Shown: positions 24,293 through 45,327 of the stretch, one piece after another | Layout of the letters: each line of letters starts with the position of its first letter | Position numbering within the stretch: position 1 is the first letter of the stretch | Source: Chryseobacterium aurantiacum | GTDB lineage: Bacteria; Bacteroidota; Bacteroidia; Flavobacteriales; Weeksellaceae | Length of the DNA stretch: 64,000 nucleotides | Assembly: GCF_003020585.1 (NCBI RefSeq) | Contig: NZ_PXUE01000001.1 | Span: 1,054,001-1,118,000, forward strand | Reading direction: 5' to 3' | Program-made: the position numbers and the translations under genes | The notes under the pieces: model-generated | Seen by the model: only the letters and a program-made list of their open reading frames with translations | The model's database searches: none | What the model was told of the DNA's origin: nothing

Positions 24293-24316
24293 CTACTTTC
24301 CAATACAAAACTTCGA
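24293..24316. other. Island attachment site, left (relic of mnmE 3' end)
   Basis: Read on the minus strand this encodes SKFCIGK-stop, the exact C-terminus of MnmE. It matches the site at 45304-45327 at 20 of 24 bases. All four differences are synonymous third-codon positions. The longest identical core is the 11 bp ATACAAAACTT on the plus strand. This is expected when an integrase uses the mnmE 3' end as attB and the element carries replacement codons. Confidence 0.85.
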
Positions 24317-24331
24317 GTTCAAAATAACCTA

Positions 24332-24344
24332 TTGTTTATCAGTG
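24332..24344 (+). repeat. 13-bp direct repeat near left island end
   Basis: TTGTTTATCAGTG occurs here and again at 45280-45292, in the same orientation and close to the attachment core at both ends (15 and 11 bp away). It is a candidate integrase arm-binding site. Confidence 0.6.
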
Positions 24345-24453
24345 TGTTATATTTTACGAGGGACAAATGGGTCACACGTTAATTCTAACCGTAATAAGTT
24401 GTTTCAAAGATAGTTATAATTCGGTTTGAATCCAAATTTGATTGAGTTAGCAA

Positions 24454-25071
24454 TTAGTAAGCATAAATGTCATCCAAATCATTAATAAAATAATCCTCAT
24501 TATGTACTGCTTCGATCTGATAATCAAAGAGTAGAAAAGCTTTGATTTCAGGTTGTAAAATTACACTTTCTTTAGTGATCCTTCCTAATCGGATATTCTC
24601 TCTTAGCTCCATTAAAAGCCTTCCTAAGGCATTTTTACCTTTTAGCAAGTTAGGTGAAGTGGGAATAGCTCCCCAAGTATCATCTTTTTTAGAAAATTCT
24701 ACAATTGTTTTACCCCCAGTATTTAATAACAATTTGGAAAATATATCAAAGTTTTGAATTAGTTTTACTTCAAGGCACCATTTCATTACTTTAAATTTGA
24801 CACTGTCCCAGTCTTGCCTTGTAAATTGATTATATTTTCTACTCACTGTTTTGGCATCCATAGGATTTTTTGTTTCGATAATCTCCTTTTGAATTGAAGG
24901 GAATAAAGGGAATTTGCATGCCTGATAAAGAATTTCTGAACTTTGAATATTCACTTCATTAATAAACAGTGAATAGCCTGGAGCCATATTGGATAAGCCT
25001 CCATATTCATTTTCAGTTTTTGCAAAAGAAATAATATCTTTTGTTTTATATTCTCTTATGCTGGGATTCAT
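24454..25071 (-). CDS. NADAR-domain protein (ADP-ribose/NAD-linked, YbiA-like fold)
   Basis: The 205-residue protein shows the NADAR signatures: EYGGLSNM (22-29), SSEILYQACKFP (44-55), DDTWG (130-134) and GKNALGRLLMELR (145-157). Known members include riboflavin-pathway N-glycosidases (YbiA) and enzymes that remove ADP-ribose from guanine in nucleic acid, where they neutralise DarT-like toxins. Its start lies 21 bp after the stop of the PRTase-like gene, so they form an operon. No DarT-like ADP-ribosyltransferase is adjacent, so the partner substrate is open. It is the outermost gene at the left island end. Confidence 0.85.
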   Translation of the reverse strand: MNPSIREYKTKDIISFAKTENEYGGLSNMAPGYSLFINEVNIQSSEILYQACKFPLFPSIQKEIIETKNPMDAKTVSRKYNQFTRQDWDSVKFKVMKWCLEVKLIQNFDIFSKLLLNTGGKTIVEFSKKDDTWGAIPTSPNLLKGKNALGRLLMELRENIRLGRITKESVILQPEIKAFLLFDYQIEAVHNEDYFINDLDDIYAY

Positions 25072-25092
25072 AATGCTAAATTAAACATTTTT

Positions 25093-26139
25093 TTATAAAC
25101 CTCTATTGGCAACAGGAAATAATGGTGTCCAATTGTGCCCTTCAACTTGCCACCAGTATACTAGTGGAGCGTTATTGGGAATATTTCGCCATGTAAAAAA
25201 ATGAGTTCCTAATCCGAAAATCTTGTATTGCGGATTTATAAGTCCCAGGGGGCGTATATTAGGAGAAATTGCACCTTGGATCATATTAATTATATCAATT
25301 CCTTTTTCAGTTATAATATTTTCAAATAGAATGCGATTTGAAGAACTAGTGAAAAAGGTTTCAATTAGAGGAGTATTAATATTTCTGTAGGCATAGTCTT
25401 CGTATTTTGTTGCGGTCAAACTTTGCAGGTAACTATTGATCTTTGGATTGTTTCCTTTAACTGGGATTGCAATATTTAGTTTTTGATCTGAGAATTTTCC
25501 ATGATTCTGAATTTCATAATTCCAGGACCAATTTATCTTTTTACTTAGCTTCTCATTGCATGTCTTATTGATTCTAAATTCTTGAAAAGAAAGTCCCCAT
25601 CTATGAGTACAAAATACACATACGGATAAGGTGATTTCATTTTCAAGAATTTTATCAGTATTATTTTTATTTTTTGTGTCCTTCTTTTCTAAAAACTCAA
25701 TTAGATGCTTGCCAATAGTACTACCAGATGCGAGTATATCATCAAAATATATAAAATGCTTTTTGGGAAATGTTAAGTAATCTAAGTATGATAATGAATA
25801 ATGCTCATTTAGTACCTCATCAATTAATTTTAGAATGGCGGGTTGACTTTTATGAGGTTGTTGCACATCCATAAACTCTGTATCCATTAAAAATTGGATT
25901 ATACTAGAGTAGTTGAACATCTTGTAATATTTACCCAAGTTACTCTTTACATATTCTTTAGCTTTTTCCCTAGAAATATAAACCTGTGGTAGGATATTGT
26001 TTAGTTCAGTAAGAATTAGTTTACTATCAGTTCCAAACTGTTCACCCCATTGTAGTATTTTTTCCGGAGTGATATATACGTTATCATGGTTACGATAGTC
26101 TTTCACAACTTCATATATACTATCTGCGAGTTCTTTCAT
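25093..26139 (-). CDS. Phosphoribosyltransferase-like conflict-system protein
   Basis: The 348-residue protein contains FIYFDDILASGSTIGKHL (FDDILASGST at 132-141), which fits the PRPP-binding loop of type I phosphoribosyltransferases. The N-terminal ~120 residues are helical, and a C-terminal region (about 230-348) has a WWQVEGHNWTPLF motif of unknown role. PRTase-like domains have been predicted in bacterial conflict systems. With NADAR next door, a nucleotide- or base-modifying reaction that NADAR reverses or completes is a reasonable hypothesis. The start is supported by a TATTTTTG element 23 nt upstream. Confidence 0.7.
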   Translation of the reverse strand: MKELADSIYEVVKDYRNHDNVYITPEKILQWGEQFGTDSKLILTELNNILPQVYISREKAKEYVKSNLGKYYKMFNYSSIIQFLMDTEFMDVQQPHKSQPAILKLIDEVLNEHYSLSYLDYLTFPKKHFIYFDDILASGSTIGKHLIEFLEKKDTKNKNNTDKILENEITLSVCVFCTHRWGLSFQEFRINKTCNEKLSKKINWSWNYEIQNHGKFSDQKLNIAIPVKGNNPKINSYLQSLTATKYEDYAYRNINTPLIETFFTSSSNRILFENIITEKGIDIINMIQGAISPNIRPLGLINPQYKIFGLGTHFFTWRNIPNNAPLVYWWQVEGHNWTPLFPVANRGL

Positions 26140-26162
26140 ATAGAAGATTTAGTAATAGAATT

Positions 26163-26170
26163 CAAAAATA
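26163..26170 (-). promoter_or_regulatory. Putative -7 element of the PRTase-NADAR operon
   Basis: The minus strand reads TATTTTTG, matching TAnnTTTG, 23 nt before the ATG at 26139. The -33 element is not clear. Confidence 0.5.
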
Positions 26171-26242: not shown

Positions 26243-26298
26243 AGTATGAAAATGTTCAAATAGAATGTATATACATTCTATTTGAACATTTTCATACT
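26243..26298. repeat. Perfect 56-bp palindrome
   Basis: The 28-nt arms (26243-26270 and 26271-26298) are exactly complementary with no loop; the centre reads GTATATAC. It lies 104 bp upstream of the PRTase start. It could extrude a cruciform, fold as an RNA hairpin, end transcription in both directions, or bind a dimeric repressor. Confidence 0.9.
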
Positions 26299-26892: not shown

Positions 26893-27663
26893 ATGGTAGT
26901 AAAAACAATTTTGGCAGTTTGCGGTAAAACTGCTGGTCAGGTTATTGTTAAAAAAGCCACAGAAGCGCTCATTGACAAATTTAACCTCTTTTATACGTAC
27001 GGGCTGTCCAATTTTACAAAAATTAGAAATCAGGATGTTCGTTTTTCAATCAGTTATTTAATCCGAATCAAAATTCCAGGTACTTCAAAGTTCTTATTGG
27101 TGCGAGGGCATCGGATAAAAGACCAGTTACAACCCGTTGGAGGTGTGTATAAAAAGTACAACTCCTTTTCTGAATTTAGAAAATGGGGCTATAAGGAAGA
27201 CTGTCCTCATAAAGGTATTAAAACAGATGATATCAGTAAGGATGATTTACGTTTTCGAGTAAAGGGTAAGTATGCTTTGGATGTGGTAAAGTGGTTTGAG
27301 TCGGAACTTGATAGAGAGTGTTCCTGGGATAGGGAGTTTGAGGAGGAGCTTATTGAGAGTAATATCCTGGATGAGAAAATCTTTCGCAAAAAAAGATTCG
27401 AAAAAGTATCTAAGATAATGAAGTTCCTTAATTACAGTACCTATCATCAGTGCTATGAAGTCTTAATTTATGACATTATCGAATTTTTGCCCACAGAGGA
27501 GCAGGAAGTCGCACTAAAAGGTTTTTTGGGCAGAGCGAGAAATTCGGGAGATGAACTAATGCTAGTCGATATCAATGAGATTGAAAGACTGATTGTTACT
27601 GAAAATGAGGAGCAAATAGCTAAAATTGGGGAACATACTAAATACTTAATCAATGAAAAATAA
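26893..27663 (+). CDS. SMODS-associated NUDIX-domain protein (CBASS)
   Basis: The 256-residue protein matches the SMODS-associated NUDIX family: YLIRIKIPGTSKFLLVRGHR (about 55-74), QPVGGVYKKY, and a NUDIX-box-like REFEEEL (147-153). The full GX5EX7REUXEEXGU box is degenerate, so hydrolase activity is uncertain. The N-terminal ~25 residues are mildly hydrophobic but not a clear transmembrane helix. It overlaps the CD-NTase gene by 11 bp and is the only candidate effector in the operon. It might bind or cleave the cyclic nucleotide signal or act on NAD-like molecules. Confidence 0.75.
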   Translation: MVVKTILAVCGKTAGQVIVKKATEALIDKFNLFYTYGLSNFTKIRNQDVRFSISYLIRIKIPGTSKFLLVRGHRIKDQLQPVGGVYKKYNSFSEFRKWGYKEDCPHKGIKTDDISKDDLRFRVKGKYALDVVKWFESELDRECSWDREFEEELIESNILDEKIFRKKRFEKVSKIMKFLNYSTYHQCYEVLIYDIIEFLPTEEQEVALKGFLGRARNSGDELMLVDINEIERLIVTENEEQIAKIGEHTKYLINEK

Positions 27664-28855
27664 TTTAAATAGATATACAGAGCAGGAACTAAAGAAAGAT
27701 GAACTTCTTGCTATAATTGCTTCCAATTTGGAGCTTGATGAAACTAGAAAAAGTCAGATGAAATCGGCATACAAGGCTGTTAATGATATTTTGGCTAAAG
27801 ATGAAAATTTTTTTAAGGGTTATACAATAAGTGTATATGCACAAGGGTCACTTTTGATTGGAACAACAATCAAACCTCTTGCTGGCAAGGAATTTGACCT
27901 AGATATCGTTCTGCATATTGAGGATTCTTACCTGAATCATACACCATCAGAGATTTATGATGAACTCTATCGTGTGCTTGCTGAGTATGAGACTTATAGA
28001 CCTCTTCTTCAGGAAAAAAACCGTTGTGTACGTATTAACTATAACAGTGATTTTCATATGGATATACTGCCCGGTTGCATCATAATGAAAGATAATACAA
28101 GATTGATGATTCCATTGGATAAAAAAAGAATCTTTTGGTCAAGAACAAATCCTAAGGGTTATTTTGAATGGTTTAATGAGATTTCTGAAAGAAATCGTAC
28201 GAGTTTTCTGCTTCAGGAAAGATATGGTATGCTTCTGGAAGCAAAGATTGAGACGGAAGATTTGCCTACAGATTTATATTTAAAAACCCCTTTGCAGAGA
28301 ACAGTTCAGATAGTTAAACGCTATCGGGATTTGTATTATCAAAATAAGAATACCGAGCGTACTCCTGCGATTTCAAGCATTGTGCTAACGACATTGCTAG
28401 CACAGATTCATGCTGGTAGTCACTCAATTCAGGAAGCTTTAAAGAATGCAGCGTCCAAATTAAAGGGACTTGCGGATGACTTTAAGTATAAGGGAGTAAA
28501 GTTCACGGTTTACAATCCGGTGGATAACCATGAAGATAAAAATGAAAGAGAAAATTTCACGGATTCTTGGGAGGATAGACATTATAATAGCTTTGTCGGC
28601 TTTGTCGAGGACTTTCAGAGAAAATTAAATACCTTTCTTGGGAATTCAACCAATGAGTTTAATTATAAGGACTTGTTTGGAAATGGTTATTATAAAGAGA
28701 ATATACAAGCGCTAGTTAAACTTGAGGAGAGTCGCAAAGGAAATCAAAAATTGGCAGCTTTGCTTGCTGGTACTGCTTACACAAGTGCAGATGGAATGAT
28801 TAACATGTCAACAGGGGTTAAAAATGGGAGTCATGGATTTTATGCTGAGTCCTAG
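27653..28855 (+). CDS. CD-NTase, cyclic oligonucleotide synthase of CBASS
   Basis: The 400-residue protein has the full nucleotidyltransferase core: QGSLLIGT (64-71, GS motif), FDLDIV with the metal-binding D82 and D84, and the third carboxylate D137 in HMDILPG. This identifies a cGAS/DncV-like (SMODS) enzyme that makes a cyclic di- or trinucleotide on phage infection. The product cannot be read from sequence. It overlaps the NUDIX gene (11 bp) and the E2-like gene (32 bp), so the three genes are translationally coupled. Its C-terminus ends ...GFYAES rather than Gly, relevant because E2-bearing CBASS conjugate the enzyme's C-terminus. Confidence 0.92.
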   Translation: MKNNLNRYTEQELKKDELLAIIASNLELDETRKSQMKSAYKAVNDILAKDENFFKGYTISVYAQGSLLIGTTIKPLAGKEFDLDIVLHIEDSYLNHTPSEIYDELYRVLAEYETYRPLLQEKNRCVRINYNSDFHMDILPGCIIMKDNTRLMIPLDKKRIFWSRTNPKGYFEWFNEISERNRTSFLLQERYGMLLEAKIETEDLPTDLYLKTPLQRTVQIVKRYRDLYYQNKNTERTPAISSIVLTTLLAQIHAGSHSIQEALKNAASKLKGLADDFKYKGVKFTVYNPVDNHEDKNERENFTDSWEDRHYNSFVGFVEDFQRKLNTFLGNSTNEFNYKDLFGNGYYKENIQALVKLEESRKGNQKLAALLAGTAYTSADGMINMSTGVKNGSHGFYAES

Positions 28856-29261
28856 CGAGCTGGCTCGGAAAAACTGGATGGGCTTTTTGTTCAAGACCAA
28901 ACTTGAATGCGAAAAAAAGTTTGACTGGATAGATTTTAAAGTTACAGGCCGGATGCTTGAAGGGACAGGTTCACTGCTGTTGAATGGTAGAAACTATTAT
29001 TTTAAAATTTTGTGCTCTCCATTTTTACGTGGTAGATTTGAACGTGTTACCGTTGAGACGAAAAATCTAAAAAAATGTGTGGATACACATTTTAATGGAG
29101 ACGGTTCTCTTTGCTTGTATCATCCTCTGTTTGATTTAAAGGGGCGTCCATACATGGATTTGGTCGATGTAATACCCTGGATATCTGAATGGGTGTATTA
29201 CTATGATAAATATCTGGAATATGGAACCTGGTTGGGACCTGAATATCCTCATGATATATAA
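28824..29261 (+). CDS. E2-like conjugating enzyme of short type II CBASS
   Basis: The 145-residue protein has a ubiquitin-E2-like fold signature, HFNGDGSLCLYHP (89-101), placing the candidate catalytic Cys at 97. Single-domain E2 proteins define short type II CBASS, where they attach the CD-NTase C-terminus to targets and prime signal production. No E1 or JAB gene is present, as expected for the short form. The start is within the CD-NTase gene; later ATGs at 28833 and 28842 are possible. Confidence 0.8.
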   Translation: MGVMDFMLSPSELARKNWMGFLFKTKLECEKKFDWIDFKVTGRMLEGTGSLLLNGRNYYFKILCSPFLRGRFERVTVETKNLKKCVDTHFNGDGSLCLYHPLFDLKGRPYMDLVDVIPWISEWVYYYDKYLEYGTWLGPEYPHDI

Positions 29262-29315: not shown

Positions 29316-29912
29316 ATGAATAAAAAGTTTAAATTGTCAGACATTGTCAATATCCGGTCTGGGATGGTAGTGCCCAAAACTGTTAATAATGACGAGGATC
29401 AATTGACTGATGCCTATGTTAGAATGATCGGTACCTCGGACTACAGCGATGACGGGGTCTTACGAAAAGATCTTGAAGCAAATGTTTTGATTAAACCTGC
29501 TATTGAAAAAAATTTCTTGCAGGAAAATGAGATTTTGTTCAATTCGAAAGGAAGGCGTTTTTTTGCCGCTAGATTCCAGAATGAGTATTCCTATACAATC
29601 GCAAGTGCTTCTTTTCTAGTGCTTACCATAGCCAGTCCAGAAGTTTTACCTGAATTTTTGGTATGGTATTTAAATCATCCGGATACACTGAAGATTTTTG
29701 ATTCAAAAATGAATACCCAGGTGATGCCGTCGATCACTAAACAGGAATTGGGGGAATTAGATATTATTATTCCTAATTTTGCAACCCAAAAGCAGATCAT
29801 ACACTTAGATTCATTAAAAAAAGAGCAAATTGTGCTTCAGAAAAGGTTGATTGTTCTAAAAGAAAATTTCATCAACACCGTAACATATAAAAAACTAAAA
29901 AATGAGCAGTAA
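29316..29912 (+). CDS. Half-size HsdS-like specificity protein
   Basis: The 198-residue protein looks like one target-recognition domain plus one helical spacer of type I specificity subunits: KLSDIVNIRSGMVV at the start, QVMPSITKQELGELDIIIPN in the middle and a helical end (QKQIIHLDSLKKEQIVLQKR). Full HsdS has two such halves (compare the ~406-residue HsdS downstream). It overlaps hsdM by 11 bp and precedes it, so it is translated with the methyltransferase. It may dimerise to replace the full HsdS, or form an independent methylation specificity. It lies outside the invertible segment. Confidence 0.75.
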   Translation: MNKKFKLSDIVNIRSGMVVPKTVNNDEDQLTDAYVRMIGTSDYSDDGVLRKDLEANVLIKPAIEKNFLQENEILFNSKGRRFFAARFQNEYSYTIASASFLVLTIASPEVLPEFLVWYLNHPDTLKIFDSKMNTQVMPSITKQELGELDIIIPNFATQKQIIHLDSLKKEQIVLQKRLIVLKENFINTVTYKKLKNEQ

Positions 29913-31431
29913 AGTAACTCAAAAAGATATCAATAATACAGTATGGAAAGCATGTGATACTTTCCGTGGAACAATTGATCCTTCTCAATATAAAGATTAT
30001 ATCCTGACTATGCTATTCTTAAAATATGTTACAGATGTATTCATTGAAAAAAAAGAAGAATATGGGAGGAAATATGATGGAAATGTGGACCGTGTTAAAA
30101 GAGCATTGGAGAGAGAGAGGTTTATAGTTCCAGATGAGTCAAGCTTTTATTTTTTATATGAAAACCGTAATAATCCTAAAATTGGTGAAATGATCAACCA
30201 TGCTCTTGCTGAGCTGGAGGAGGCTAACAGGGAGAAACTCGGAGGACAAGATGGTTCAAATATTTTCAGGAACATTGATTTCAATAGCTCTAATTTAGGT
30301 GATGCGAAGGGTAAGGTAACAAGATTACGAAATCTTTTGAATGATTTTGTCACTTTGAATCTTTCATCGTCACATCTGGAGAATAATGATGTCATAGGGG
30401 GAGCTTATGAATTTCTAATAGCGAATTTTGCTTCTGATTCAGGTAAGAAAGCAGGAGAGTTCTTTACGCCGGCGGAAGTTTCTACTTTATTGGCTAAATT
30501 AACTAAATCAAAATCTGGTTCACGTATTTACGATCCCACATGTGGTTCGGGATCATTGCTGATCAAGGCTGGACGAGAGGTTGGTGATAATAATTTCTCG
30601 CTTTATGGACAGGAGGCTAATGGGAGCACATGGGCACTGGCTGTAATGAATATGTATCTACATGGTTATGATAGTGCAATAATACGTTGGGGAGATACCT
30701 TACGTAATCCTAAGCATAAAGATGGCGACAATCTCATGCTGTTTGATACGGTCGTAGCAAATCCTCCGTTTTCATTGGATAAATGGGGTGCGGACGAGTT
30801 GTTAAATGATACTTATAATCGTTTTTGGAGAGGAGTGCCACCAAAATCAAAGGGGGACTGGGCATTTATTTCCCATATGCTTGAATCTTTGAATAATACA
30901 GGGAAGGCTGGTGTTGTAGTTCCCCATGGTGTATTGTTTAGAGGTGCGGCAGAAGGAAAAATTCGTGCAAAAACTTTAGAAGAAGACCTTATTGAGGCAG
31001 TCATAGGGCTACCTTCAAATTTATTTTTTGGAACAAGTATTCCGGCTGCAATTGTTATTTTTAATAAGCAAAAAGTTAATAAGCAAAAAGTTCTGTTTAT
31101 CGATGCAAGTAAAGGATTTGTACCCGGTAAAAACCAAAATTCATTGGGCGACTCACATATTCAACGTATTTTAAACATTTTCTCGCACTTTCACGATGAG
31201 ATGACTGATGTGGGTGTTTTAGAGGATAAATTTGCATATGTATCAACGCTGGATGAAATTATCGAGAATGATTACAATCTTAATATTCCAAGATATGTTG
31301 ATACTTTTGAAGCAGAAGAGGAGGTAGATATTAAAGCTGTTATGCAGGATATCAAATCTTTGGAAGCTAAAAGAGATGAATTGGACAGGGAGATTGAAGG
31401 TTATTTAAAAGAGCTGGGTCTTGATTTTTAA
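29902..31431 (+). CDS. hsdM: Type I restriction-modification methyltransferase subunit
   Basis: The 509-residue protein has an N-terminal HsdM_N helical domain (about 10-155) and an N6-adenine methyltransferase domain with the SAM-binding DPTCGSGSLL (about 211-220) and catalytic VANPPFS (NPPF at about 287). A C-terminal helical tail probably contacts HsdS. It methylates adenine in the site chosen by the S subunit and protects host DNA. It is the anchor of a locus that also has four target-recognition domains in the switchable S region plus the half-S. Confidence 0.95.
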   Translation: MSSKVTQKDINNTVWKACDTFRGTIDPSQYKDYILTMLFLKYVTDVFIEKKEEYGRKYDGNVDRVKRALERERFIVPDESSFYFLYENRNNPKIGEMINHALAELEEANREKLGGQDGSNIFRNIDFNSSNLGDAKGKVTRLRNLLNDFVTLNLSSSHLENNDVIGGAYEFLIANFASDSGKKAGEFFTPAEVSTLLAKLTKSKSGSRIYDPTCGSGSLLIKAGREVGDNNFSLYGQEANGSTWALAVMNMYLHGYDSAIIRWGDTLRNPKHKDGDNLMLFDTVVANPPFSLDKWGADELLNDTYNRFWRGVPPKSKGDWAFISHMLESLNNTGKAGVVVPHGVLFRGAAEGKIRAKTLEEDLIEAVIGLPSNLFFGTSIPAAIVIFNKQKVNKQKVLFIDASKGFVPGKNQNSLGDSHIQRILNIFSHFHDEMTDVGVLEDKFAYVSTLDEIIENDYNLNIPRYVDTFEAEEEVDIKAVMQDIKSLEAKRDELDREIEGYLKELGLDF

Positions 31432-31470: not shown

Positions 31471-32691
31471 ATGATCGAGATGGCGGATAAAGAGTTAAAA
31501 GTAAGTAAGGTTCCTAATTTGAGATTTCCAGAGTTTAATGGGGAATGGGAAGTCAAAAAATTAGGTGAGATTGCTGTTTTTTCAAAAGGAAAGGGAATTT
31601 CTAAAAGCGATATTGATGGATCAGGGATAACTGAGTGCATAAGGTATGGTGAACTATATACGCATTATAAAGAGGTTATCATTGATATAAAATCAAAAAC
31701 AAATATTAATAAATCAGATTTAATTCTAAGTGAAGAGAATGATGTCATCATTCCCGCTTCTGGAGAAACAAAAATTGATATTGCAACAGCTTCTTGTATT
31801 TTAAAGTCTGGTATTGCTTTAGGGGGAGATTTGAATATCATCAAATCCAATAATATTAATGGGGTTTTTTTGGCCTATTATCTAAATAGTAAGAAGAAAA
31901 GGGAAATAGCTAATTTAGCACAGGGTATTTCAGTAGTTCATTTATATTCAAGTCAATTATCTTCTCTTCATATAATTCTGCCAGAGCTCAATGAGCAGCA
32001 GAAAATTTCTGGATTTCTGACGCTACTTGATGAAAGAATACAAACCCAAAACAAAATACTTAGAGAATTAATTGTATTGAAATCTAGTTTTGCAAAAAAA
32101 ATCTTCGAACGTGATCTTTTTTTTAAAAATGAAATGGGCTTTTCGTACGATGAGTGGAAAGAAATGAAATTAAGAGAGGTTGTAAATATTAACATGGGGC
32201 AATCGCCAGAATCATCTTCATATAACTTGGAAAATGTTGGTTATCCACTCATACAAGGAAACGCTGATATTGTTGATAGAGTTTCTGAGCCTAGGCAATA
32301 TACAAGTAAGCCCACAAAGTTTTGTGAGATTGGTGACATATTGTTAACTGTAAGAGCACCTGTTGGGTATGTGGCTAGATCTAAACATAATGCTTGTATT
32401 GGACGAGGTGTTTGCTCAATAAAGACTAAAGGGAATACCCAATTAGAATATGTGTATCAATTTTTACAATATTTTGAGATGAAGTGGAAATCACTTGAAC
32501 AGGGAAGTACCTTTACTGCTGTTAATAGCTCAGATATTGGATCAATAACTATTATGATACCATCAGTTTTAGAACAAAAAAAAATTGTTAATTTTCTTTC
32601 AGCAATTAATAAAAAAATTGTACTTGAGAAGTGCATATTAGAGGTTACAGAGAAACAGAAAAAAAAATTATTATCACAGCTGTTTGTATAG
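31471..32691 (+). CDS. hsdS: Type I specificity subunit, expressed copy
   Basis: The 406-residue protein has the usual two target-recognition domains (about 20-170 and 220-370), each followed by a conserved helix (ERIQTQNKILRELI and the C-terminal EVTEKQKKKLLSQLFV). The start codons MIEMADKE are upstream of the shared repeat, so this copy has its own start. It shares three sequence blocks in inverted orientation with the cassette at 32694-33834: 31506-31537, 32036-32058 and 32671-32690. Recombination there would exchange either half. Confidence 0.93.
   Translation: MIEMADKELKVSKVPNLRFPEFNGEWEVKKLGEIAVFSKGKGISKSDIDGSGITECIRYGELYTHYKEVIIDIKSKTNINKSDLILSEENDVIIPASGETKIDIATASCILKSGIALGGDLNIIKSNNINGVFLAYYLNSKKKREIANLAQGISVVHLYSSQLSSLHIILPELNEQQKISGFLTLLDERIQTQNKILRELIVLKSSFAKKIFERDLFFKNEMGFSYDEWKEMKLREVVNINMGQSPESSSYNLENVGYPLIQGNADIVDRVSEPRQYTSKPTKFCEIGDILLTVRAPVGYVARSKHNACIGRGVCSIKTKGNTQLEYVYQFLQYFEMKWKSLEQGSTFTAVNSSDIGSITIMIPSVLEQKKIVNFLSAINKKIVLEKCILEVTEKQKKKLLSQLFV
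31506..31537 (+). repeat. hsdS 5' inverted repeat, copy A
   Basis: These 32 bp encode the conserved LRFPEF start region. They are identical to the reverse complement of 33803-33834. Confidence 0.92.
32036..32058 (+). repeat. hsdS central inverted repeat, copy A
   Basis: These 23 bp, in the helix between the two recognition domains (coding RIQTQNKI), are identical to the reverse complement of 33270-33292. They would allow exchange of one recognition domain at a time. Confidence 0.9.
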
Positions 32692-32714
32692 TATTATACG
32701 AACAGCTGTGATAA
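32671..32714. repeat. hsdS 3' inverted repeat pair
   Basis: The 20-bp arms 32671-32690 and 32695-32714 match at 19 positions around a 4-nt centre. They form the shared tail LLSQLFV of both hsdS copies and could also act as a bidirectional hairpin between the convergent genes. Confidence 0.88.
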
Positions 32715-37900: not shown

Positions 37901-38134
37901 TATCAATTACTAAAGCAGGAAAAGTTCAAAGAGGGAAAAGAAACGGAGATTACTAAGGTTTTTGATGATTTGATTTCAAATTATGAAATAGTTGATTGGC
38001 ATAAACGTACAGATATTATTAACAAAATTGAATTAGATTTTGGTGATTATCTAATGGATGTATTTGATTTTCCTTTAGAAGAAGCTGATAAATTAACTAG
38101 GAAATTAATAGATATCGCAGTCGCAAATAAATGA
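34982..38134 (+). CDS. hsdR: Type I restriction endonuclease motor subunit
   Basis: The 1050-residue protein has an N-terminal PD-(D/E)XK nuclease (RPDIVLFVNGIPLAIIECKS, with D and ExK), then a superfamily 2 translocase with Walker A HTQGSGKSLTM, DEAH (IDEAHRTQHG) and QAIARVNR near the C-terminal motor motif. A helical C-terminal domain contacts the HsdM/S core. It cuts unmodified DNA after ATP-driven translocation. It lies after the recombinase gene and 1 nt before the YgjP-like gene, so the latter is co-transcribed. Confidence 0.95.
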   Translation: MAFTEDNTSQIPALKLLINLGYSYLSQEQSLELRDSRESNVILGKVLRERLMFINDIKIGNKRTKFESANIDKAIQKIQDIPLSEGLVHSCNQIYNLLIFGHALEQSIEGDKKSFTLNYIDWNNPSNNHFHVAEEFSVLRTGRKESYRPDIVLFVNGIPLAIIECKSPLIKDPLKQAISQHIRNQQENGILSLYVYSQILLSTCLFESKYATTNTKEEFWSIWKEKDNHFNELLDNLVNSPLSIEVENKIFSNPGIRNSKDRTTYIEKYQHYVAPTAQDICIHGLLSPERLLSIIKDFILFEGGVVKKIARFQQFFSINKIIERIKPLRNGKRKGGVVWHTQGSGKSLTMAMLARKIKEAVPNPQIILVTDRIDLDRQITATLKKVEIEVINAGSGKQLVSLLKGNGDLVITTIINKFDAAVRSLEENQLTSPNIFVLIDEAHRTQHGIFNVNMEKVLPNACFIVFTGTPLMKKQKNTANKFGGIIDTYPISEAVEDGAIVPILYEGRLAVQDVNRRALDNTVNMVIEDLEEKHRADLKRKMSQANLISKTEQNIYQIAFDISKHFQSNWGYNEEDIHTGFRGMVVCPDKLTAVKYKKCFDLIGKVKTEVVMSAPDTRENNEDIHSSESPEVTQYFELLKAKYGPDIDNTIIQNYEKGESIELLIVIDKLLTGFDVPQTVVMYLCRKLREHTLLQAIARVNRVYPGKDYGFIIDYAGIMEELKEALENYSGDSSFDPEDIVGSLTNISEEVGKLPRVHKDLLNLFTQVVNEHNIDEYVYLLSDQAVREDFYSKFSLFARILKIALSSIDFHNSSSQGEIQQYKDDLKKYAGIRVAANSLYLDTVSFTQYEKQLQKLLDQHVITEEIIRLVEPLDILDAEAFAEEVEKLVGPRAKAEKIAAATAKYLSINIDANPALYKKLSELISETIAEMRANRLSELEALKKLNGFRDQILNGSSYQVPDEIKGKERNVAIYQLLKQEKFKEGKETEITKVFDDLISNYEIVDWHKRTDIINKIELDFGDYLMDVFDFPLEEADKLTRKLIDIAVANK

Positions 38135-38135
38135 G

Positions 38136-38828
38136 ATGATAGAGAGTATTCAGTACGGGAAGGAAAGAATTGAATTTGAATTGAAATATTCAAAGCGCAA
38201 AAGTGTTGGAGTAAAAATATTACCTGACTCTTCTGTTGTTGTTGTTGCACCACTCGAAATATCTTTGGATAGGACAAAAGAACTGCTTCTGAAAAAAGCG
38301 AGTTGGATCATAAGACAAAAATCATTTTTTCTACAATTTGAACCTACAATTTTTGATTATGAAGTTAAATCAGGTTATTCCATTTATTATCTGGGTCGTC
38401 AATATAAATTTCTAGTGGAAAAATCTTATAGGGAAGAAGTTTCATACAAAGGAAATTTGTTTTTAGTATCTACAAGAAGTAAGGATAGAGCTCGAGATTT
38501 TTTTTTGGAATGGTTAAAGACTAAAGCTGCCAATAAAATATCGGAAATTGCAAAGCCTATTATCAAAAAGTTTTCCGAACGCTTTGAGGCACCAAAAAGC
38601 ATATATTTTCAGGACATGCCAACACGTTGGGGAAGCTGCACAGTAAAGAATAAGCTTATTTTTAATCCCAAATTAGTGCATACTCCCAAAAGATGCATTG
38701 AATATGTTGTAATGCATGAGCTGTGTCACATAGTACATAAACATCACGATCAGAATTTTTTTGATTTATTGACAGTTATGATGCCTGATTGGGAAAGGAG
38801 AAAAGCTAAATTAGACTCATTTGCGTAG
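38136..38828 (+). CDS. YgjP-like (DUF45) metallopeptidase of the RM locus
   Basis: The 230-residue protein has the zincin motif HELCH (194-198) with a downstream His (HKHHDQNF) and the family signature TRWGSC (about residues 165-170). These mark the YgjP/M48-like DUF45 family, which frequently accompanies type I restriction systems. Its substrate is not known; proteolytic control of HsdR is an unproven idea. It begins 1 nt after hsdR stops, indicating coupling. Confidence 0.88.
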   Translation: MIESIQYGKERIEFELKYSKRKSVGVKILPDSSVVVVAPLEISLDRTKELLLKKASWIIRQKSFFLQFEPTIFDYEVKSGYSIYYLGRQYKFLVEKSYREEVSYKGNLFLVSTRSKDRARDFFLEWLKTKAANKISEIAKPIIKKFSERFEAPKSIYFQDMPTRWGSCTVKNKLIFNPKLVHTPKRCIEYVVMHELCHIVHKHHDQNFFDLLTVMMPDWERRKAKLDSFA

Positions 38829-39246: not shown

Positions 39247-39423
39247 GTGAGTATTTTAAAAGGATTTCATGTGTGTTTTAAACCACTTTTTACCTTTCTA
39301 AACTACAAATATTTCGTTTATTGTTTATGGATACTAGTAACAATCTTTAGATAAAGCATAAATAAAATATGAGAAAGAAACTGATGTCTTAAATTAATGA
39401 ATTTTTACTATTCAAATCCATTT

Positions 39424-39712
39424 AGGTATTTTGGTACTCGACGAACCAGGACAACATGCTATGGCTTCAGGTGATTTAAAAATGCTTTTGCGGGAAGCTG
39501 CTAAAATAAAGGATAGACAGGTCATAATTGCAATATCTAAAGAAGATAAAGTTAAATTAGGAACATCTAATGAGGGGTCTCCCGTTGTTGAAAAAGAAAT
39601 CGACTTAATTTCGATGCTGTCAGATCCCGGATTAATCGAAGGAAAAGACTACAGATTGAATATGATTGATGGAAATGGAAGAAAAGATAAATGTATTCAA
39701 CCCCTAAACTAA
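39424..39712 (+). pseudogene. C-terminal remnant of an SMC/ABC-like ATPase
   Basis: The open frame reads ILVLDEPGQHAM (Walker B and following D-loop-like motif), then KDRQVIIAISKE (H-loop-like region without His) and a ~50-residue tail to a natural stop. Nothing corresponding to the N-terminal Walker A half is present upstream. It is probably the 3' end of a deleted defence ATPase. The ATG at 39431 is out of the natural start context. Confidence 0.55.
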
Positions 39713-40024: not shown

Positions 40025-43000
40025 ATGAAAATCCACGGTATATTTATAGGCATTGACAGGTTTCAATCCCCTTCAATAAATTGGCTTTCTTGCGCAAGAC
40101 GAGATGCAGTTGCATTATATTCTTTGTTTTCTGATAATCTTCAGGGAAATTTTCATTTAATGTTCGATGAAAATGCAACAAGAGATTCGATAGAATACCG
40201 AATTAAGGAGCTATCCAATTGTGCAGAGGACGATATTGTAATATTTTCTTTTTCAGGACATGGTACAAATACCCATGAATTAGTAACCTATGATACAAAT
40301 ATTAATGATATAGGTTCAACGACAATCGCACTGGATACTTTAGCAGAATGGTTTAAAAATATTCCTGCGAGACAATTAATATGTATTATTGACTGCTGTT
40401 TTTCAGGAGGAATGGGAGCAAAAGCATTAGAGGTGAATTTTGCTTCAAGAGAATTTAAATCGGGAGAAGAACTAATAAAACAATTTTCAGGTAGTGGCAG
40501 GGTTATATTAACTGCCTCAAAGGCTACCGAACCTGCATGGGAAAATGGAAAGTTAGGTCATGGTTTATTGACTTACCATCTGCTAGAGGCACTGCAAGGA
40601 GCAAATGAGGTAAGAAAAGACCAAAAAATTGGCATTTACCGTTTACTAGAGTATGTTACATCCAGTGTTAAGAACTCTGCTGGTGAATTAGGTGCTGAGC
40701 AAAACCCCATGTTGTTAGGACAAATAACAGAAGAGATTAGCTTCCCTATTTTTAAACCAGGTAAACTGTACAAAGAAGCTTTTCCAGAAAGAAACCTTTC
40801 ACTGGCGGATTCAAGTATCGAATCCTTGCTGGAATTTGGATTTCCCAATGAAATTATAGAAGCATGGAAGCTGAAGATACCGTCATTAAATCAATTACAA
40901 GTAGATGCAATTAATGATTATGGTATTCTTACAGGTAATCATCTTGTAGTATCAGCTCCTACATCTTCTGGGAAAACAATGGTAGGAGAGCTTGCTGCTA
41001 TATTTGGGGTTTTACAAAGAAAAAGAGCTGTATTTCTTCTTCCTCTAAAAGCATTGGTAAATGATAAATTAAGGCATTTTGACGAAACATATGCATCTTT
41101 TGATATTAAAACAATCAAAGCTACTGGAGAAAGTGTTACTGATGATATTATACCATTGATGAAAGGTCAATATGATATATGCTTGATGACTTATGAAAAG
41201 TTTGCAGCCATTATATTAGCTAATCCTTATGTTCTTAATCAAATTGGAACTGTCATAGTGGATGAAGCTCAAATGATAGCTGATAAAAACAGAGGTTTAA
41301 ACTTAGAATTTATATTAACATTATTAAAACTCAAGCGTAGAGAAGGTGTTGAACCTCAGATTATAGCTTTGTCCGCAGTAATTGGTGATTTAAATGGATT
41401 AGAAAGATGGTTAGGTGGTCGTCTGTTATTACATACTGAAAGACCAATTCCTCTAAATGAAGGAATTATAAAGCTCAATGGTGATTTCCGATATATTGAA
41501 TCTGATACAGGGGATGAAATTACAACAAACCTTATAAGGCCCAGTTTTAGGAAGGGATCCAGTCAGGATATTATAATCCCTTTGGTTCAGAAGTTGGTCA
41601 ACGAAGGCAAAAACGTTATTGTTTTCCGAGAGACAAAATCAGAAGCACAAGCTTGTGCAATGTACTTGGCTAATAATTTAGATTTACAGCCAGCTTCTGA
41701 TGCAATCGATTTATTGCCACAAAATGACCCTTCTATTTCCACTCAGAAACTAATACAAACATTAAATAAGGGAGTTGCATTTCATATTTCGGATCTTGAC
41801 GCTGAGGAAAGATCTGTTATAGAGGATCAATTCAGAAGCAAACAATCAGGGTTAAAAATAATTGCAGCGACTACAACTTTAGCTATGGGAGTTAATACTC
41901 CAGCTGAAGCGGTCATCATTTCTGGTCTGACTCATCCGGGTAATATTCCTTATTCAGTTTCTGAATATAAAAATATTATAGGTCGAGCAGGTCGATTAGG
42001 ATTTGCTGATAGAGGATATTCTTTTTTGATTGCAACAACTTCAATCGCAGAACATACTTACTGGCAAGACTATGTTTTGGGAAGGCCAGAAGACATGCAG
42101 TCTAATTTTGTTTCAAAGAACACAGATAGTCGCTCATTAGTGTTAAGAGTATTGGCTGCATCCAAGTCTAAAAGAGGAATGAGCAGGTCTGAAATTATTG
42201 GATTTTTAACAGAAAGTTTTGGGGCTTATCAAGAGAAAATAAAATATAACACTTGGGACTGGAGTTCTAGAGACATTGATGATGCGTTAAATGAACTTAC
42301 TTATCATCAGCTAATAGAAATGGATAATGAAAGCTGTTTTCATACCACTATAATAGGAAAAATAGCAGGAGATTCAGGAATTGAAGTTGAATCAATTATT
42401 CGTATCATTGGTACATTGCAACAAATTCCTTCGGATTCCCTTTCTGATCCTGCATTATTGGGAATAGCACAGCTTACTACAGAGCTGGAGCAGGTATATA
42501 TGCCTATAAACAAAAAAAGTATTTATAAAGAGCCACATACATGGAGTGACGCCATACAAAGACAGCGAATTCCTTCCCAGTTGATAAATGCATTTTCAAG
42601 ATATTCAAAGGATAATATTGAAACTACATCTAAGTCAAAGAAAACGATGGCTTGCCTACTTTGGGTAACAGATATGCAATTGGTGGAAATGGAGGCTCTT
42701 CTTATGCAACACAACCGAGACAACTCTGCTGCAGGTGCAATACGAGGTATAGTTTCAAGAGCTTGTGATGTCCTTCCTATTATTGCCGGTATAACTGAGA
42801 TTTTAAAACCAGATATTAAGCTAACAGAAAGAATTCCCAAATTACTTTTAAGATTAGAATTAGGTGTTCCATCGTCTATTATAGATTTAGCAAAAGTTTT
42901 AGGGAGAACTTTAAATCGAGGCGAATATCTTGCGTTATTAAAAAGAGGAATAATGACTACTGATCAGTTTAGTACTACTGATGAGCGAATTTTATTAGAG

Positions 43001-43108
43001 ATATTTTCTAGTGATAAGGTTGAAGAAATAAGATTTAAGATTGAACAAAATATTCAAGAACAATCAACTAGAATAGAGCTTCCTGAGCTTCCACTTTATG
43101 AGGAATAG
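40025..43108 (+). CDS. Caspase-like peptidase fused to a Ski2-like helicase
   Basis: In the 1027-residue protein, residues 1 to about 230 form a C14 caspase-fold peptidase with the catalytic dyad His79 (SFSGHGT) and Cys125 (IDCCFSGG). Residues ~290-700 form a superfamily 2 helicase: Walker A APTSSGKT (311-318), DEAQ (413-416), SAVIGD, and the late motif IGRAGRLG (~651-658). The C-terminal ~300 residues look like winged-helix and helical-bundle domains of the Ski2/Hel308 type. Nucleic-acid sensing by the helicase could trigger the protease to kill the cell or cut a partner. No partner gene is adjacent. It is single-gene, between an IS scar and the integrase. Confidence 0.88.
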   Translation: MKIHGIFIGIDRFQSPSINWLSCARRDAVALYSLFSDNLQGNFHLMFDENATRDSIEYRIKELSNCAEDDIVIFSFSGHGTNTHELVTYDTNINDIGSTTIALDTLAEWFKNIPARQLICIIDCCFSGGMGAKALEVNFASREFKSGEELIKQFSGSGRVILTASKATEPAWENGKLGHGLLTYHLLEALQGANEVRKDQKIGIYRLLEYVTSSVKNSAGELGAEQNPMLLGQITEEISFPIFKPGKLYKEAFPERNLSLADSSIESLLEFGFPNEIIEAWKLKIPSLNQLQVDAINDYGILTGNHLVVSAPTSSGKTMVGELAAIFGVLQRKRAVFLLPLKALVNDKLRHFDETYASFDIKTIKATGESVTDDIIPLMKGQYDICLMTYEKFAAIILANPYVLNQIGTVIVDEAQMIADKNRGLNLEFILTLLKLKRREGVEPQIIALSAVIGDLNGLERWLGGRLLLHTERPIPLNEGIIKLNGDFRYIESDTGDEITTNLIRPSFRKGSSQDIIIPLVQKLVNEGKNVIVFRETKSEAQACAMYLANNLDLQPASDAIDLLPQNDPSISTQKLIQTLNKGVAFHISDLDAEERSVIEDQFRSKQSGLKIIAATTTLAMGVNTPAEAVIISGLTHPGNIPYSVSEYKNIIGRAGRLGFADRGYSFLIATTSIAEHTYWQDYVLGRPEDMQSNFVSKNTDSRSLVLRVLAASKSKRGMSRSEIIGFLTESFGAYQEKIKYNTWDWSSRDIDDALNELTYHQLIEMDNESCFHTTIIGKIAGDSGIEVESIIRIIGTLQQIPSDSLSDPALLGIAQLTTELEQVYMPINKKSIYKEPHTWSDAIQRQRIPSQLINAFSRYSKDNIETTSKSKKTMACLLWVTDMQLVEMEALLMQHNRDNSAAGAIRGIVSRACDVLPIIAGITEILKPDIKLTERIPKLLLRLELGVPSSIIDLAKVLGRTLNRGEYLALLKRGIMTTDQFSTTDERILLEIFSSDKVEEIRFKIEQNIQEQSTRIELPELPLYEE

Positions 43109-43194
43109 AAGTATTGTTGGCTTTAAGTGCTGTTGTTATAAGGGATTTAAAATATCGGATGAAATTTAAAAAATACGAGAAAGAAACTGATATT

Positions 43195-44355
43195 TTAATT
43201 TTTCTTATTCAAATCTAACTTAATTTTTTCTGAAGCCTCTTTTGTCAACTCATCTACAATTCTCACATACACTTCTGTAGTCTTAACATCTTTATGACCC
43301 AGTAATTTTGATACAGTATAGATGTCTGTGCCGGATGTCAGTTGCAACGTTGCGAATGTATGACGGAAACCATGGAATGTAAAATGTTTTTTTATTCCAG
43401 CATTTTTAAGCCAACCGGGGAGGAATTTGGTTACATCAGAATATGCTAGGCCTTCGAAAATTTTTGCATCATATTCACCATGAGGATTCAATAGCGAAAG
43501 GGTGTCATCTGAAATAGGGTAGTATTCTGCCTTTCCAGTTTTATTCTGCTTATATAGTATATAATAATTACCGGGAGTTCCCTGTATATTTCCCCACTTT
43601 AGATTTTCAATATCGCAAAAGCGAAGCCCTGTTAATGCAGAAAACAGGCCTGCTTTCTTAACAATTGGGGAGCTACATTCAGAATCGGCCATTTTTTGTA
43701 ATTCATCCTTAAAAAGGTAAGGTCTATGGGTATCATTTATTTTGATATTATAAATGGCATTTCCGAGATCTGTTGAAATGTATTTATTCCTATAGGCTTT
43801 TTTAAGGACGGATCTAAATCTTGAAAAATAAGTGGACGCTGTATTTTTTTGAATTTTTCTTTTTGAGCGCCCAACCGCAGGGGAAGATAATAGATAATTT
43901 TTATAGGCCTCACAGAGTGTTTCATTAAGATGTTTAAATAGAAATACGTTACCCACAAATTTTTTAAAATAGGCAACTGCCATACTCCAATGCACTGATC
44001 CTGGTCTTTTGTCAGCTTCTGTTTGAAAAAATTCTATGAAATCGGCATTAAATTTTGTTTTATTTAGAAATCCATAATCAGCGTTATCAAGGTCAATTTG
44101 TCGCTGGGCACGTATATGCTCAGCCAATGAAACGGTTTGTTTATTATGGATTTTTTCAGTCTCAGATCTTGGCCGATTGTAAATGTATAATTTAAGATAG
44201 AATTTTCTAAGCGGCTTGCCGGTTGTTTCACTTTGGATAGGGGGATAGATGTCTAAATACAAGCTTTTTCTTCCTTTACCTATCGGTTTATGGCGTAGGG
44301 TAACGTTTGCCATGATCTTGGTATTAGGGATTAGATTATAGTTGTCTTTTGTCAA
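43195..44355 (-). CDS. int: Tyrosine integrase of the island
   Basis: The 386-residue protein has an N-terminal arm/SAM-like domain of the Bacteroidota integrase type (about 1-190) and a catalytic domain with GLRFCDIE (Arg), HGFRHTFATL (His, Arg), LLGHKDVKTTEVYV (His, Tyr). Its size matches mobile-element integrases. It lies within 1 kb of the mnmE 3' end and 78 bp from its small partner, as expected for the enzyme that placed this island at mnmE. Confidence 0.92.
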   Translation of the reverse strand: MTKDNYNLIPNTKIMANVTLRHKPIGKGRKSLYLDIYPPIQSETTGKPLRKFYLKLYIYNRPRSETEKIHNKQTVSLAEHIRAQRQIDLDNADYGFLNKTKFNADFIEFFQTEADKRPGSVHWSMAVAYFKKFVGNVFLFKHLNETLCEAYKNYLLSSPAVGRSKRKIQKNTASTYFSRFRSVLKKAYRNKYISTDLGNAIYNIKINDTHRPYLFKDELQKMADSECSSPIVKKAGLFSALTGLRFCDIENLKWGNIQGTPGNYYILYKQNKTGKAEYYPISDDTLSLLNPHGEYDAKIFEGLAYSDVTKFLPGWLKNAGIKKHFTFHGFRHTFATLQLTSGTDIYTVSKLLGHKDVKTTEVYVRIVDELTKEASEKIKLDLNKKN

Positions 44356-44433
44356 ATTGACTTATAGCAAAAGCTATTGAGTCCTCAAAAGTATTATGAA
44401 GTCAATTTTGCTCTATTTTGGAGGTTATTGATT

Positions 44434-44784
44434 CTAATAAATTAGTGCTAGATCTAATACATTAATTCTTGTTTTTCTCACAGATAGGTTGATAGCTTTT
44501 AAACGGCCTGTCGTGATTAAGAAATAGACCATTTTTGTACTGCATTTTAATATTGCAGAAGTTTCTTTTACCGTAAGGTATATCGGAGGACTTATAGATT
44601 GGTACTTTAGTTCTTCAATATTTCGAACCGCATACCTTGTGTAATCTATTTTTTTATTTCTTTGTTCGAGTTTATAGGCTTTTCTATTGCAGGTGTGACT
44701 ACAGTATCTGGTAACTATAGTTTTGGCAATGAATTTTGTACCGCAATATTGGCAGACTCTTTCAATTCTGATATTTGAGCTCAT
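44434..44784 (-). CDS. Zn-ribbon/HTH excisionase-like protein
   Basis: The 116-residue protein has a treble-clef-like zinc motif (CQYCGTKF ... RYCSHTC, about 11-30). An HTH_17/excisionase-type helix-turn-helix follows (VKETSAILKCSTKMVYFLIT, about 73-92). It is upstream of and in line with the integrase gene. It probably bends DNA at the attachment site to favour excision, or represses int. The zinc motif fused to the HTH is seen in Bacteroidota mobile elements. Confidence 0.75.
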   Translation of the reverse strand: MSSNIRIERVCQYCGTKFIAKTIVTRYCSHTCNRKAYKLEQRNKKIDYTRYAVRNIEELKYQSISPPIYLTVKETSAILKCSTKMVYFLITTGRLKAINLSVRKTRINVLDLALIY

Positions 44785-45148
44785 AATCAGATTTTTTAAG
44801 TCTAAAAAAAATACTTATTCAGACCATAGGCTTCAATAATGGCATTAGGGATGTCATTATACTCCTTTATTCAGGGCAATACAATTAAATGGATACAAAA
44901 TTCATCCCAAAGAAGAGGTCAATCTGTGAAAAATAATTCTAAAATTTAGTTTTTTAGCTCATCCAGATGAAATTGGAAATTTTTAAATTGATTACAATTT
45001 TTAAAAATAGTCAAGCGATGGAGTTTGTAAAAAAAATAATTTCTCCAAATTAAGAGTATATAGAATACAATAGTCATCTTTAAAGACCATCTAATACTCA
45101 TTAGAGTATACTAGACCATGAAATTCTATAACCATTCTATTTTCTTTT

Positions 45149-45205
45149 GCTCAAATTTTTGTGATTTTATGCCAAGGGGACAAGAAAAGGGACAAAAATT
45201 TGAGC
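45149..45205. repeat. 14-bp perfect inverted repeat at right island end
   Basis: GCTCAAATTTTTGT (45149-45162) and ACAAAAATTTGAGC (45192-45205) are exact complements around a 29-nt loop that contains GGGGACAAG. It is a candidate protein-binding or transfer-related structure about 100 bp from the attachment core. Confidence 0.8.
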
Positions 45206-45279
45206 GTTCGAAACTTCAAAATTACATAAGTTGCATTAAATCAATACGTTATATAAATAATATTAAAACTTGCAACTTG

Positions 45280-45292
45280 TTGTTTATCAGTG
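45280..45292 (+). repeat. 13-bp direct repeat near right island end
   Basis: TTGTTTATCAGTG, identical to 24332-24344 in sequence and direction, 11 bp from the attachment core. Confidence 0.6.
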
Positions 45293-45303
45293 GTTTACGT
45301 GTT

Positions 45304-45327
45304 CTATTTGCCGATACAAAACTTAGA
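45304..45327. other. Island attachment site, right (functional mnmE 3' end)
   Basis: This encodes the current MnmE C-terminus SKFCIGK-stop on the minus strand. It pairs with the relic at 24293-24316; see that entry for the match. Bases left of the 11-bp core come from the island and restore the gene. Confidence 0.85.

Follow-up and report, generated by a model that had tools for sequence, protein, structure and literature searches.

What holds a 21-kb block of mostly predicted virus-defence genes directly against the 3' end of a housekeeping gene in Chryseobacterium aurantiacum? The block lies at 24293..45327 of the 64,000-nucleotide stretch analysed here (contig NZ_PXUE01000001.1, positions 1,054,001 to 1,118,000; hereafter the window, to which all positions refer). 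It adjoins the 3' end of mnmE (45304..46692, minus strand), an open reading frame (ORF) of 462 aa for a tRNA-modification GTPase with a homolog in 98 of 98 sampled genomes of the genus. Based on the junctions of the block and on its relatives, it is highly probable that the block is a genomic island inserted site-specifically into the mnmE 3' end by its own tyrosine integrase, with the last nine or so base pairs of the gene swapped for an equivalent copy.

Junctions and ends of the island

Two 24-bp sites bound the island. Read on the minus strand, the distal attachment (att) site at 24293..24316 is TCGAAGTTTTGTATTGGAAAGTAG and the proximal one at 45304..45327, the end of mnmE itself, is TCTAAGTTTTGTATCGGCAAATAG. 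As had been noticed in the original prediction, they lie in the same orientation and both translate SKFCIGK-stop, with four differences in 24 positions, each synonymous. Allowing up to four mismatches, the mnmE copy has two matches, itself included, when both strands of the window are searched, and the same search in 300 first-order Markov sequences of window length gave a mean of 0.0 matches. The pair is not explained by chance, which agrees with the original view of the left site.

Just inside each att site stands a 13-bp direct repeat, TTGTTTATCAGTG (24332..24344 at the left end, 45280..45292 at the right end), present in two copies only in the window and predicted to be an arm-type site; partly similar bases were seen by eye in siblings at the right end. 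The tyrosine integrase gene (43195..44355, minus strand), with Arm-DNA-bind_5, SAM_5 and Phage_integrase domains, lies about 0.95 kb from mnmE. An xis-like gene (44434..44784, minus strand) has an HTH_17 domain and scores below the NCBIfam cut-off for 'excise'. These domains bear out the integrase and excisionase-like gene expected at the right end.

The island therefore combines an adjoining integrase with direct repeats that preserve the target gene, and relatives provide the other two marks of a tyrosine-recombinase genomic island, empty sites and the same ends with different cargo at one target. The claim that an island is integrated at the mnmE 3' end with both junctions readable holds on these grounds.

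The element family in relatives

Genomes of relatives are labelled G###, with G000 for the island's own. The integrase was found at 77% identity or more in nine of 173 genomes of the genus, its own included, and in G251 of another genus. A search for further islands with this integrase at mnmE had been proposed; seven of the ten close homologs stand directly behind mnmE (G000, G007, G074, G089, G152, G153 and G251). A broken integrase copy in G005, 7.6-8.2 kb behind mnmE, was left out of the ten.

By blastn, the DNA common to the family consists of the right end, 2.26 kb from mnmE to just past int at 78-92% identity, and about 120-145 bp of the left end at 78-86%. In the window the conserved right end (att flank, xis and int) covers 43197..45303 on the minus strand, with 81-92% identity to G007, G089 and G074 and 78-91% to G153, G085, G052, G056, G152 and G251; the left end covers 24294..24438, with 78-86% to G007, G077 and G074 and 84% to G251. 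Between the ends only a relic of 54 bp, discussed below, aligned over 40 bp or more to the genus flanks of other members by blastn; for 18 further regions the comparison was confined to their ends and proteins.

Both ends are present at mnmE in G000 (21.0 kb), G007 (17.1 kb), G074 (11.9 kb) and G251 (10.6 kb), and G077 has kept the left end alone, 4.0 kb from mnmE. In G089, G152 and G153 the right end is paired with a distal att end of another kind, suggesting that these arrays have recombined or suffered partial deletions. In G074 a second integrase, 33% identical and split into two ORFs, starts about 0.2 kb past the distal site, and the arrangement is a tandem array.

The cargo between these ends changes from member to member, as far as could be seen from the part of the sibling ORFs that was scanned. 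G007 carries an SMEK/PDC-M54A protein, weaker DzbA-, DzbB- and LmuA-like proteins and several ORFs without a match. Type I methylase-type, HsdS, PtuA-like and PtuB-like genes were identified in G251, and ORFs matching these in size and start, one of them scanned, in G152. G153 has a type IIG enzyme, a methyltransferase and GajB-like and split GajA-like proteins, while G089 has a GHKL ATPase and Eco57I-type methylase, Mrr-type and HNH/PtuB-like proteins. Hydrolase, DJ-1, nitroreductase, epimerase and aldehyde dehydrogenase genes are found in G074, a hydrolase matching that of G074 and a DJ-1 gene (the latter by eye) in G056, SDR-type and hydrolase genes in G085, and an AAA-subtilase pair in G052. 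Because the cargo is defence-like in six of the ten members, this island counted, and metabolic in three, defence cargo is common yet no rule of the family.

Empty sites and the native neighbour of mnmE

The native downstream neighbour of mnmE was identified as the gene at 14835..15533 (plus strand), whose DUF1826 match is below the Pfam cut-off. Its homolog follows mnmE directly and convergently in four empty sites, after 7 bp (G008), 17 bp (G041), 65 bp (G001) and 99 bp (G072). The distance between the two genes ranges from 7 bp to 164 kb in 61 collinear genomes; the median for all 62 collinear genomes is 21 kb, and the own genome has 29.8 kb. Gaps were computed for 90 of the 98 mnmE places, the own genome and seven without a neighbour match being excluded. 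Of the 90, 62 are collinear, 18 have the genes on different contigs, five are otherwise arranged and five have no neighbour among the matches listed. Gaps run from the end of the protein match, stop codon not counted, and the 892-kb gap of G073 was treated as a rearrangement and omitted from the 61-genome range.

As the homolog of 14835..15533 directly follows mnmE elsewhere, the stretch 15534..24292 separates the island from its native neighbour. This variable host-side stretch holds the peptidase S15 gene 'cocE', two genes with PF00144 serine-hydrolase domains, DUF1266 and AraC-type genes, and others. The genes from 22009 to 15553, without cocE, stand in the same order in G010 (L047), and in its three closest matches (G005, G006 and G054) cocE is inverted relative to mnmE and 8-25 kb away. 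The original prediction had envisaged an empty site in which mnmE is followed by a hairpin at 24226 and by CocE. No such site was found, there being no blastn match to the distal flank in 97 genus flanks (up to 20 kb each) or in 18 further regions. A lack of continuity between mnmE and the hairpin had been named as telling against an insertion; it was encountered to the letter, but the purpose of that comparison is not touched, since the DNA on the hairpin side was not the ancestral neighbour of mnmE.

Probable position of the strand exchange

At the proximal junction the gene end TAG is followed by AA in seven of seven family members at mnmE, and at the distal junctions with a cognate left end this is so in none of five, the tails being TAG-ATCC, TAA-TTGA, TAA-TTAA, TAA-AAAC and TAA-CAAC. 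Among the mnmE ends of the genus TAG-AA occurs in 10 of 98, namely in four of the seven members and in G010, G083, G086, G054, G095 and G035; G010 and G054 clearly run on with right-end-like bases. The distal tail of the island, GGAAAGTAGAT, is identical to the mnmE ends of G006 and G015, both without an integrase ORF within 3.2 kb. In four right ends away from mnmE (one each in G085 and G056, two in G052) similarity starts, by eye, at GGGAAATA or GGGAAATG, while blastn itself starts 10-38 bp further inside; these starts suggest an exchange 5' of the last 9 bp.

Based on the junction tails and the right-end starts, the element likely supplies the last 9 bp or so of mnmE, with the exchange just before them, and displaces the original, as reported for Salmonella genomic island 1 (SGI1). 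The last 9 bp of the proximal site (45304-45312, GGCAAATAG) are thus likely element-supplied, and the last 9 bp or so of the distal site (24293-24301, GGAAAGTAG) are likely the displaced original mnmE end. The earlier description of the left site as a relic of the host gene needs to be divided accordingly: its last 9-10 bp are likely displaced host DNA, and the bases before them belong to the conserved left end of the element.

In the proposed mechanism the island's own tyrosine integrase would insert it at the mnmE 3' end, moving the original last nine or so bp to the far side of the island and replacing them by an equivalent copy. The exchange would fall between TTTTGTAT and the last 9 bp, within the conserved FCIGK codons, so that mnmE would stay intact, and re-excision would be possible by way of the predicted arm repeats and the xis gene. 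According to the accessible text of PMC12397908, the C-terminal motif FC(V/I/L)GK of MnmE is conserved and its cysteine is crucial for the reaction, which likely explains the stability of the target.

The mnmE 3' end as an integration hotspot

The flanks of mnmE were taken from the 97 other sampled genomes of the genus, 92 of them being at least 4.5 kb long. In 46 of these 92 flanks a tyrosine-integrase ORF running in the same direction begins no more than 3.2 kb from mnmE, and 42 of the 46 ORFs have at least 300 aa. As a control, the parts of these flanks that lie 5-20 kb out, 1.32 Mb in all, contained no integrase ORF of at least 300 aa; the integrase model was built from these relatives, and other recombinase types are missed in both counts. 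At the level of the family, mnmE is directly upstream in 16 of 20 hand-chosen loci with integrases of 35-46% identity. In a tree of 85 recombinases the 71 at mnmE are spread over several clades and tend to cluster, and a subgroup of 415-418 aa had three of three examined members elsewhere. Since the 20 loci were hand-picked and this subgroup is undersampled, 71 of 85 is no unbiased rate.

Thirteen intervals between mnmE and its neighbour exceed 60 kb (the 892-kb case omitted). Eight of them, 100-164 kb long (G004, G017, G025, G027, G042, G050, G061 and G062), hold a TraG-type conjugation ATPase above the curated cut-off; none was found in the intervals of G013, G019, G035, G085 and G094. The ATPase inside eight of 13 long intervals makes it likely that conjugative elements use the mnmE site, and that these eight genomes have integrative and conjugative elements (ICEs) there. 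With a related integrase gene at the same spot in 46 of 92 relatives, the mnmE end is likely a common docking point for mobile DNA in the Weeksellaceae, shared by small int-xis islands and large conjugative elements.

Relatives of the integrase were also sought more widely. None was found in viral contigs by a search sensitive to close relatives only. Sixteen plasmid records had matches below 60% identity, with 34-40% and Bacteroidales-type hosts among the ten matches listed. Distant integrases of Ilyomonas and Bacteroides (27-28%) had no mnmE match in the stretches compared. Two loci (L247 in G272 and L229 in G199) have an MnmE of 47-49% identity to that of the window with a wider-clade integrase behind it, and may represent a second mnmE type. 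In G063 (C1:4011036-4012417), a genome 75% complete, the mnmE match is in two parts with an internal stop, which may be an assembly fault. Escherichia coli was considered as support from another phylum: of 5374 genomes with a match, 777 have less than 80% coverage of the mnmE 3' flank, and the break falls at the gene end in the nine matches listed. It was dropped, the three places opened (L251, L249 and L250) having one extra gene and no integrase.

Origin and mobility of the island

Inside the island, at 39370..39423 on the minus strand, lies a relic of an integrase 3' end with the bases following it, 87% identical to G007 around its int stop codon; within the window, 39364-39395 and 43170-43201 are 88% identical over 32 bp. 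At 39419-39423 the relic abuts a truncated ATPase-like gene (39419..39712, plus strand), the C-terminal remainder of a gene for a protein of about 700 aa (ATPase-like by eye, no Pfam match for the relic). The DNA that starts at 39419 matches the end of a 701-aa frame in G082 at 81% identity, and there is a 699-aa frame in G133. The island is probably compound, two elements having been fused by deletion. A newer element with xis, int, a caspase-helicase gene (40025..43108, plus strand) and the gene for the 700-aa protein would have docked between mnmE and an older element carrying a cyclic oligonucleotide-based anti-phage signalling system (CBASS), type I restriction and a NADAR-PRTase pair. 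A deletion would then have removed the rest of the 700-aa gene, the inner att site and most of the old xis-int, fusing both; we infer each step of this order. A single element, in which the caspase-helicase module was inserted next to int and brought the duplicated 32-54 bp at 39370-39423 along, would account for the one pair of outer ends, the one intact int-xis and the repeat flanking the 39396-43169 segment. Moreover, copies of the caspase-helicase of 95-96% identity occur elsewhere in G010 and G160, within a 3.2-kb block of 93% DNA identity, so that this gene appears to move on its own. Yet the copy at 39370-39423 is closer to the int 3' end of G007 than to the island's own int, and it abuts a gene cut at 39419, as a deletion between two elements would leave; we regard a single element as rather unlikely.

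Site-specific insertion by the island's own integrase has in turn to be weighed against a number of observations that do not favour it. Three of the seven members at mnmE lack a cognate left end, and three of the ten close integrase homologs are not at the mnmE junction: that of G085 lies 78 kb off, inside the mnmE-to-neighbour interval, that of G056 (L217) follows another integrase fragment where the contig stretch has no mnmE, and in G052 (L216) the homolog and mnmE are on separate contigs. The distal tail of G074 is the start of the next element and hence not plain host DNA. The island's own distal flank stands next to mnmE in no relative examined, and the insertion is deduced from comparison with other species. 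Finally, no relaxase or transfer domain was found in the scanned ORFs of the island: its 16 named ORFs contain neither a conjugation domain (Pfam) nor a relaxase domain, no search for an origin of transfer having been made, and the two TraG-type hits of the genome are on contig C8. The island could also be a decayed conjugative element resembling a cis-mobilizable element (CIME), with ends and integrase retained and the transfer genes gone, which would move only with an intact ICE at the site. Integrases of 58-59% identity do stand at mnmE in seven genomes whose 100-164 kb intervals hold a TraG-type gene (G004, G017, G025, G027, G042, G050 and G062), and accretion and CIME formation are known, at least from the portion of PMC5704250 consulted. 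Four members, however, have the same compact arrangement of int-xis and a short left end, and their scanned ORFs (part of the cargo) showed no tra domain; such a shared layout looks like an original plan and not like independent decay, so that we consider this origin unlikely. Old core or regional DNA, with the distal site a partial duplication of the mnmE end formed without site-specific integration, would explain why relatives do not have the distal flank next to mnmE. Against it stand the siblings with different cargo at the same place, the conserved ends, the empty sites and the integrase beside the gene. The caspase-helicase, in four of 173 genomes of the genus (E up to 1e-100, own included), and the PRTase, in 10 of 320 of the family (E up to 1e-15, own included), are too rare for core genes, and this explanation is very improbable.

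The right ends of G052 and G056 start at GGGAAAT(A/G) away from mnmE; secondary sites or deleted arrays are possible.

Predicted defence genes of the island

The 16 named ORFs make up 18.2 of the 21.0 kb. Eleven belong to predicted defence modules, an invertase gene and a YgjP gene adjoin the restriction locus, and the rest are int, xis and the relic ORF at 39401-39712. The statement that the interior is almost purely immunity genes was a fair one.

Next to the distal site are genes for a NADAR protein (24454..25071, minus strand; NCBIfam DS32_2_antiphage, 263 bits against a cut-off of 240) and a PRTase-CE protein (25093..26139, minus strand; DS32_1_antiphage, 294 bits against 250), both equivalogs of the DS32 NADAR-PRTase pair thus being above cut-off. 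Between this pair and the CBASS genes lies a perfect loopless palindrome of 56 bp (26243-26298). It was considered as a regulator of the pair and rejected, as none of 13 other PRTase loci (some overlapping, with 1.5-kb flanks) has a comparable one.

A CBASS locus on the plus strand contains effector, CD-NTase and E2 components. The effector (26893..27663) has a SMODS-associated NUDIX domain (PADLOC 2TM effector, 8.1e-83), the CD-NTase, or cyclase (27653..28855), was matched by PADLOC at 8.2e-150 with the NCBIfam cyclase models below cut-off, and the E2-like ancillary protein (28824..29261) has a PADLOC E2 match of 5.1e-43 and no Pfam match.

HsdM, HsdS and HsdR of a type I restriction-modification system are all present. 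A half-size hsdS with one Methylase_S domain (29316..29912) precedes hsdM, the methyltransferase gene (29902..31431); the specificity gene hsdS1 (31471..32691), the restriction subunit gene hsdR (34982..38134) and the adjacent gene for a YgjP-like metallopeptidase (38136..38828) are likewise on the plus strand, and hsdS2 (Methylase_S, 32694..33821) is inverted on the minus strand. An inverted-repeat arm of 86 bp at 31506..31591 has its partner at 33749-33834 (77% identity). Adjoining these repeats is a second tyrosine recombinase gene (33907..34833, plus strand), predicted to encode an hsdS invertase. With its opposed hsdS genes beside a recombinase, 31506-33834 is predicted to be a phase-variable specificity switch.

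The caspase-helicase gene codes for a single protein of 1027 aa, in which a caspase-like protease is fused to a Hel308-type helicase and for which a role in defence is predicted. At E up to 1e-30 it has at least 1658 relatives (7989 best candidates scored); among the 120 listed most are full-length at 52-95%, and the named ones are from several phyla. An alignment of 12 sequences shows no variation at H79, C124, C125 and many residues of the helicase motifs. Hel308 and HamB (chain 8vx9) are among the PDB entries related to it in sequence, and the helicase half matches HamB models of the Hachiman system (5.9e-37), its partner here being the fused caspase-like domain. Among the PADLOC matches listed for ten ORFs, Hachiman models were of the HamB type only, and the fusion was named in parts (HamB-type helicase, caspase). 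This fusion was not found in the literature searched, including the consulted part of a paper on caspase-nuclease loci (PMC12799240), which is a weak negative.

Relation to known elements

SGI1 has an 18-bp att site whose last 9 bp, GGGAAGTAA or GGGAAGTGA, come from the element while the 9 bp of the host are displaced (PMC9035990), and tandem arrays of different islands are described for the SGI1/MGIVchHai6-type site in the accessible parts of PMC9035990 and PMC7449626. The present family has in common with these gammaproteobacterial elements the trmE/mnmE 3' end, the partition at the last 9 bp (likely here) and the tandem arrays, and the suggestion that an element of the Bacteroidota uses the target known from SGI1 is borne out by this identical gene end. 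It differs in its Bacteroidota host and in carrying predicted defence cargo here where SGI1 carries drug resistance, and no domain of the SGI1 backbone (rep, traN, traG/H, mpsA/B, as given in the sections of PMC9035990 consulted) was found by Pfam in the 16 named ORFs.

Closer to the host, the targets given for ICECspPOL2, ICECleSHZ29 and ICEEaI-III in the available text of PMC8694125 and PMC12561888 are tRNA-Glu, tRNA-Met, tRNA-Leu, tRNA-Arg, tRNA-Asp and mutY. The island resembles these Chryseobacterium and Elizabethkingia ICEs, as described there, in the same or a near host family, an integrase and mostly 3' gene-end targets, and is unlike them in its mnmE target and in the lack of conjugation genes among its 16 named ORFs. 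The 10K genomic island of Riemerella anatipestifer, in tRNA-Arg with a 53-bp att site, had its integration and excision demonstrated, according to the part of PMC6764341 seen; it is likewise small and integrase-bearing with direct repeats, at tRNA-Arg instead of mnmE. Tandem integration at one att site with decay of one partner is also found in accretion islands of CIMEs and integrative and mobilizable elements (in the portion of PMC5704250 available), from which the present case, known from sequence alone, differs in having an int relic joined to the relic of another gene.

No report of mnmE as an integration site in Bacteroidota was found in the literature searched, subscription papers being mostly uncovered. 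As an element the island is of a known kind; its target was not found reported for the phylum, and the hotspot to which it belongs is much larger. A broader reading, which we put forward tentatively and hold slightly less probable than even, is that the DNA of the FCIGK tail is a docking site across phyla, on which unrelated integrases of Gammaproteobacteria and Weeksellaceae would have converged, with the same 18-bp window and partition, because the last codons can hardly change. In the Weeksellaceae it would be a main port of entry, at which stacking of conjugative elements with int-xis-only islands, and their fusion by deletion, would give rise to multi-system defence islands.

Taken together with the SGI1 case, this one could reveal why integration returns to certain protein-gene ends, since the target encodes a motif with a crucial cysteine (PMC12397908, in the text accessible). 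The island gives a view, at the level of sequence, of a multi-system defence island that may have been assembled by repeated docking and deletion, and new defence systems such as the caspase-helicase protein could be sought in the mnmE flanks. For the Weeksellaceae, in which the ICE sites reported in the sources consulted are at tRNA genes and mutY, the end of mnmE would be a precise point of entry for defence genes and, probably, also for conjugative elements.

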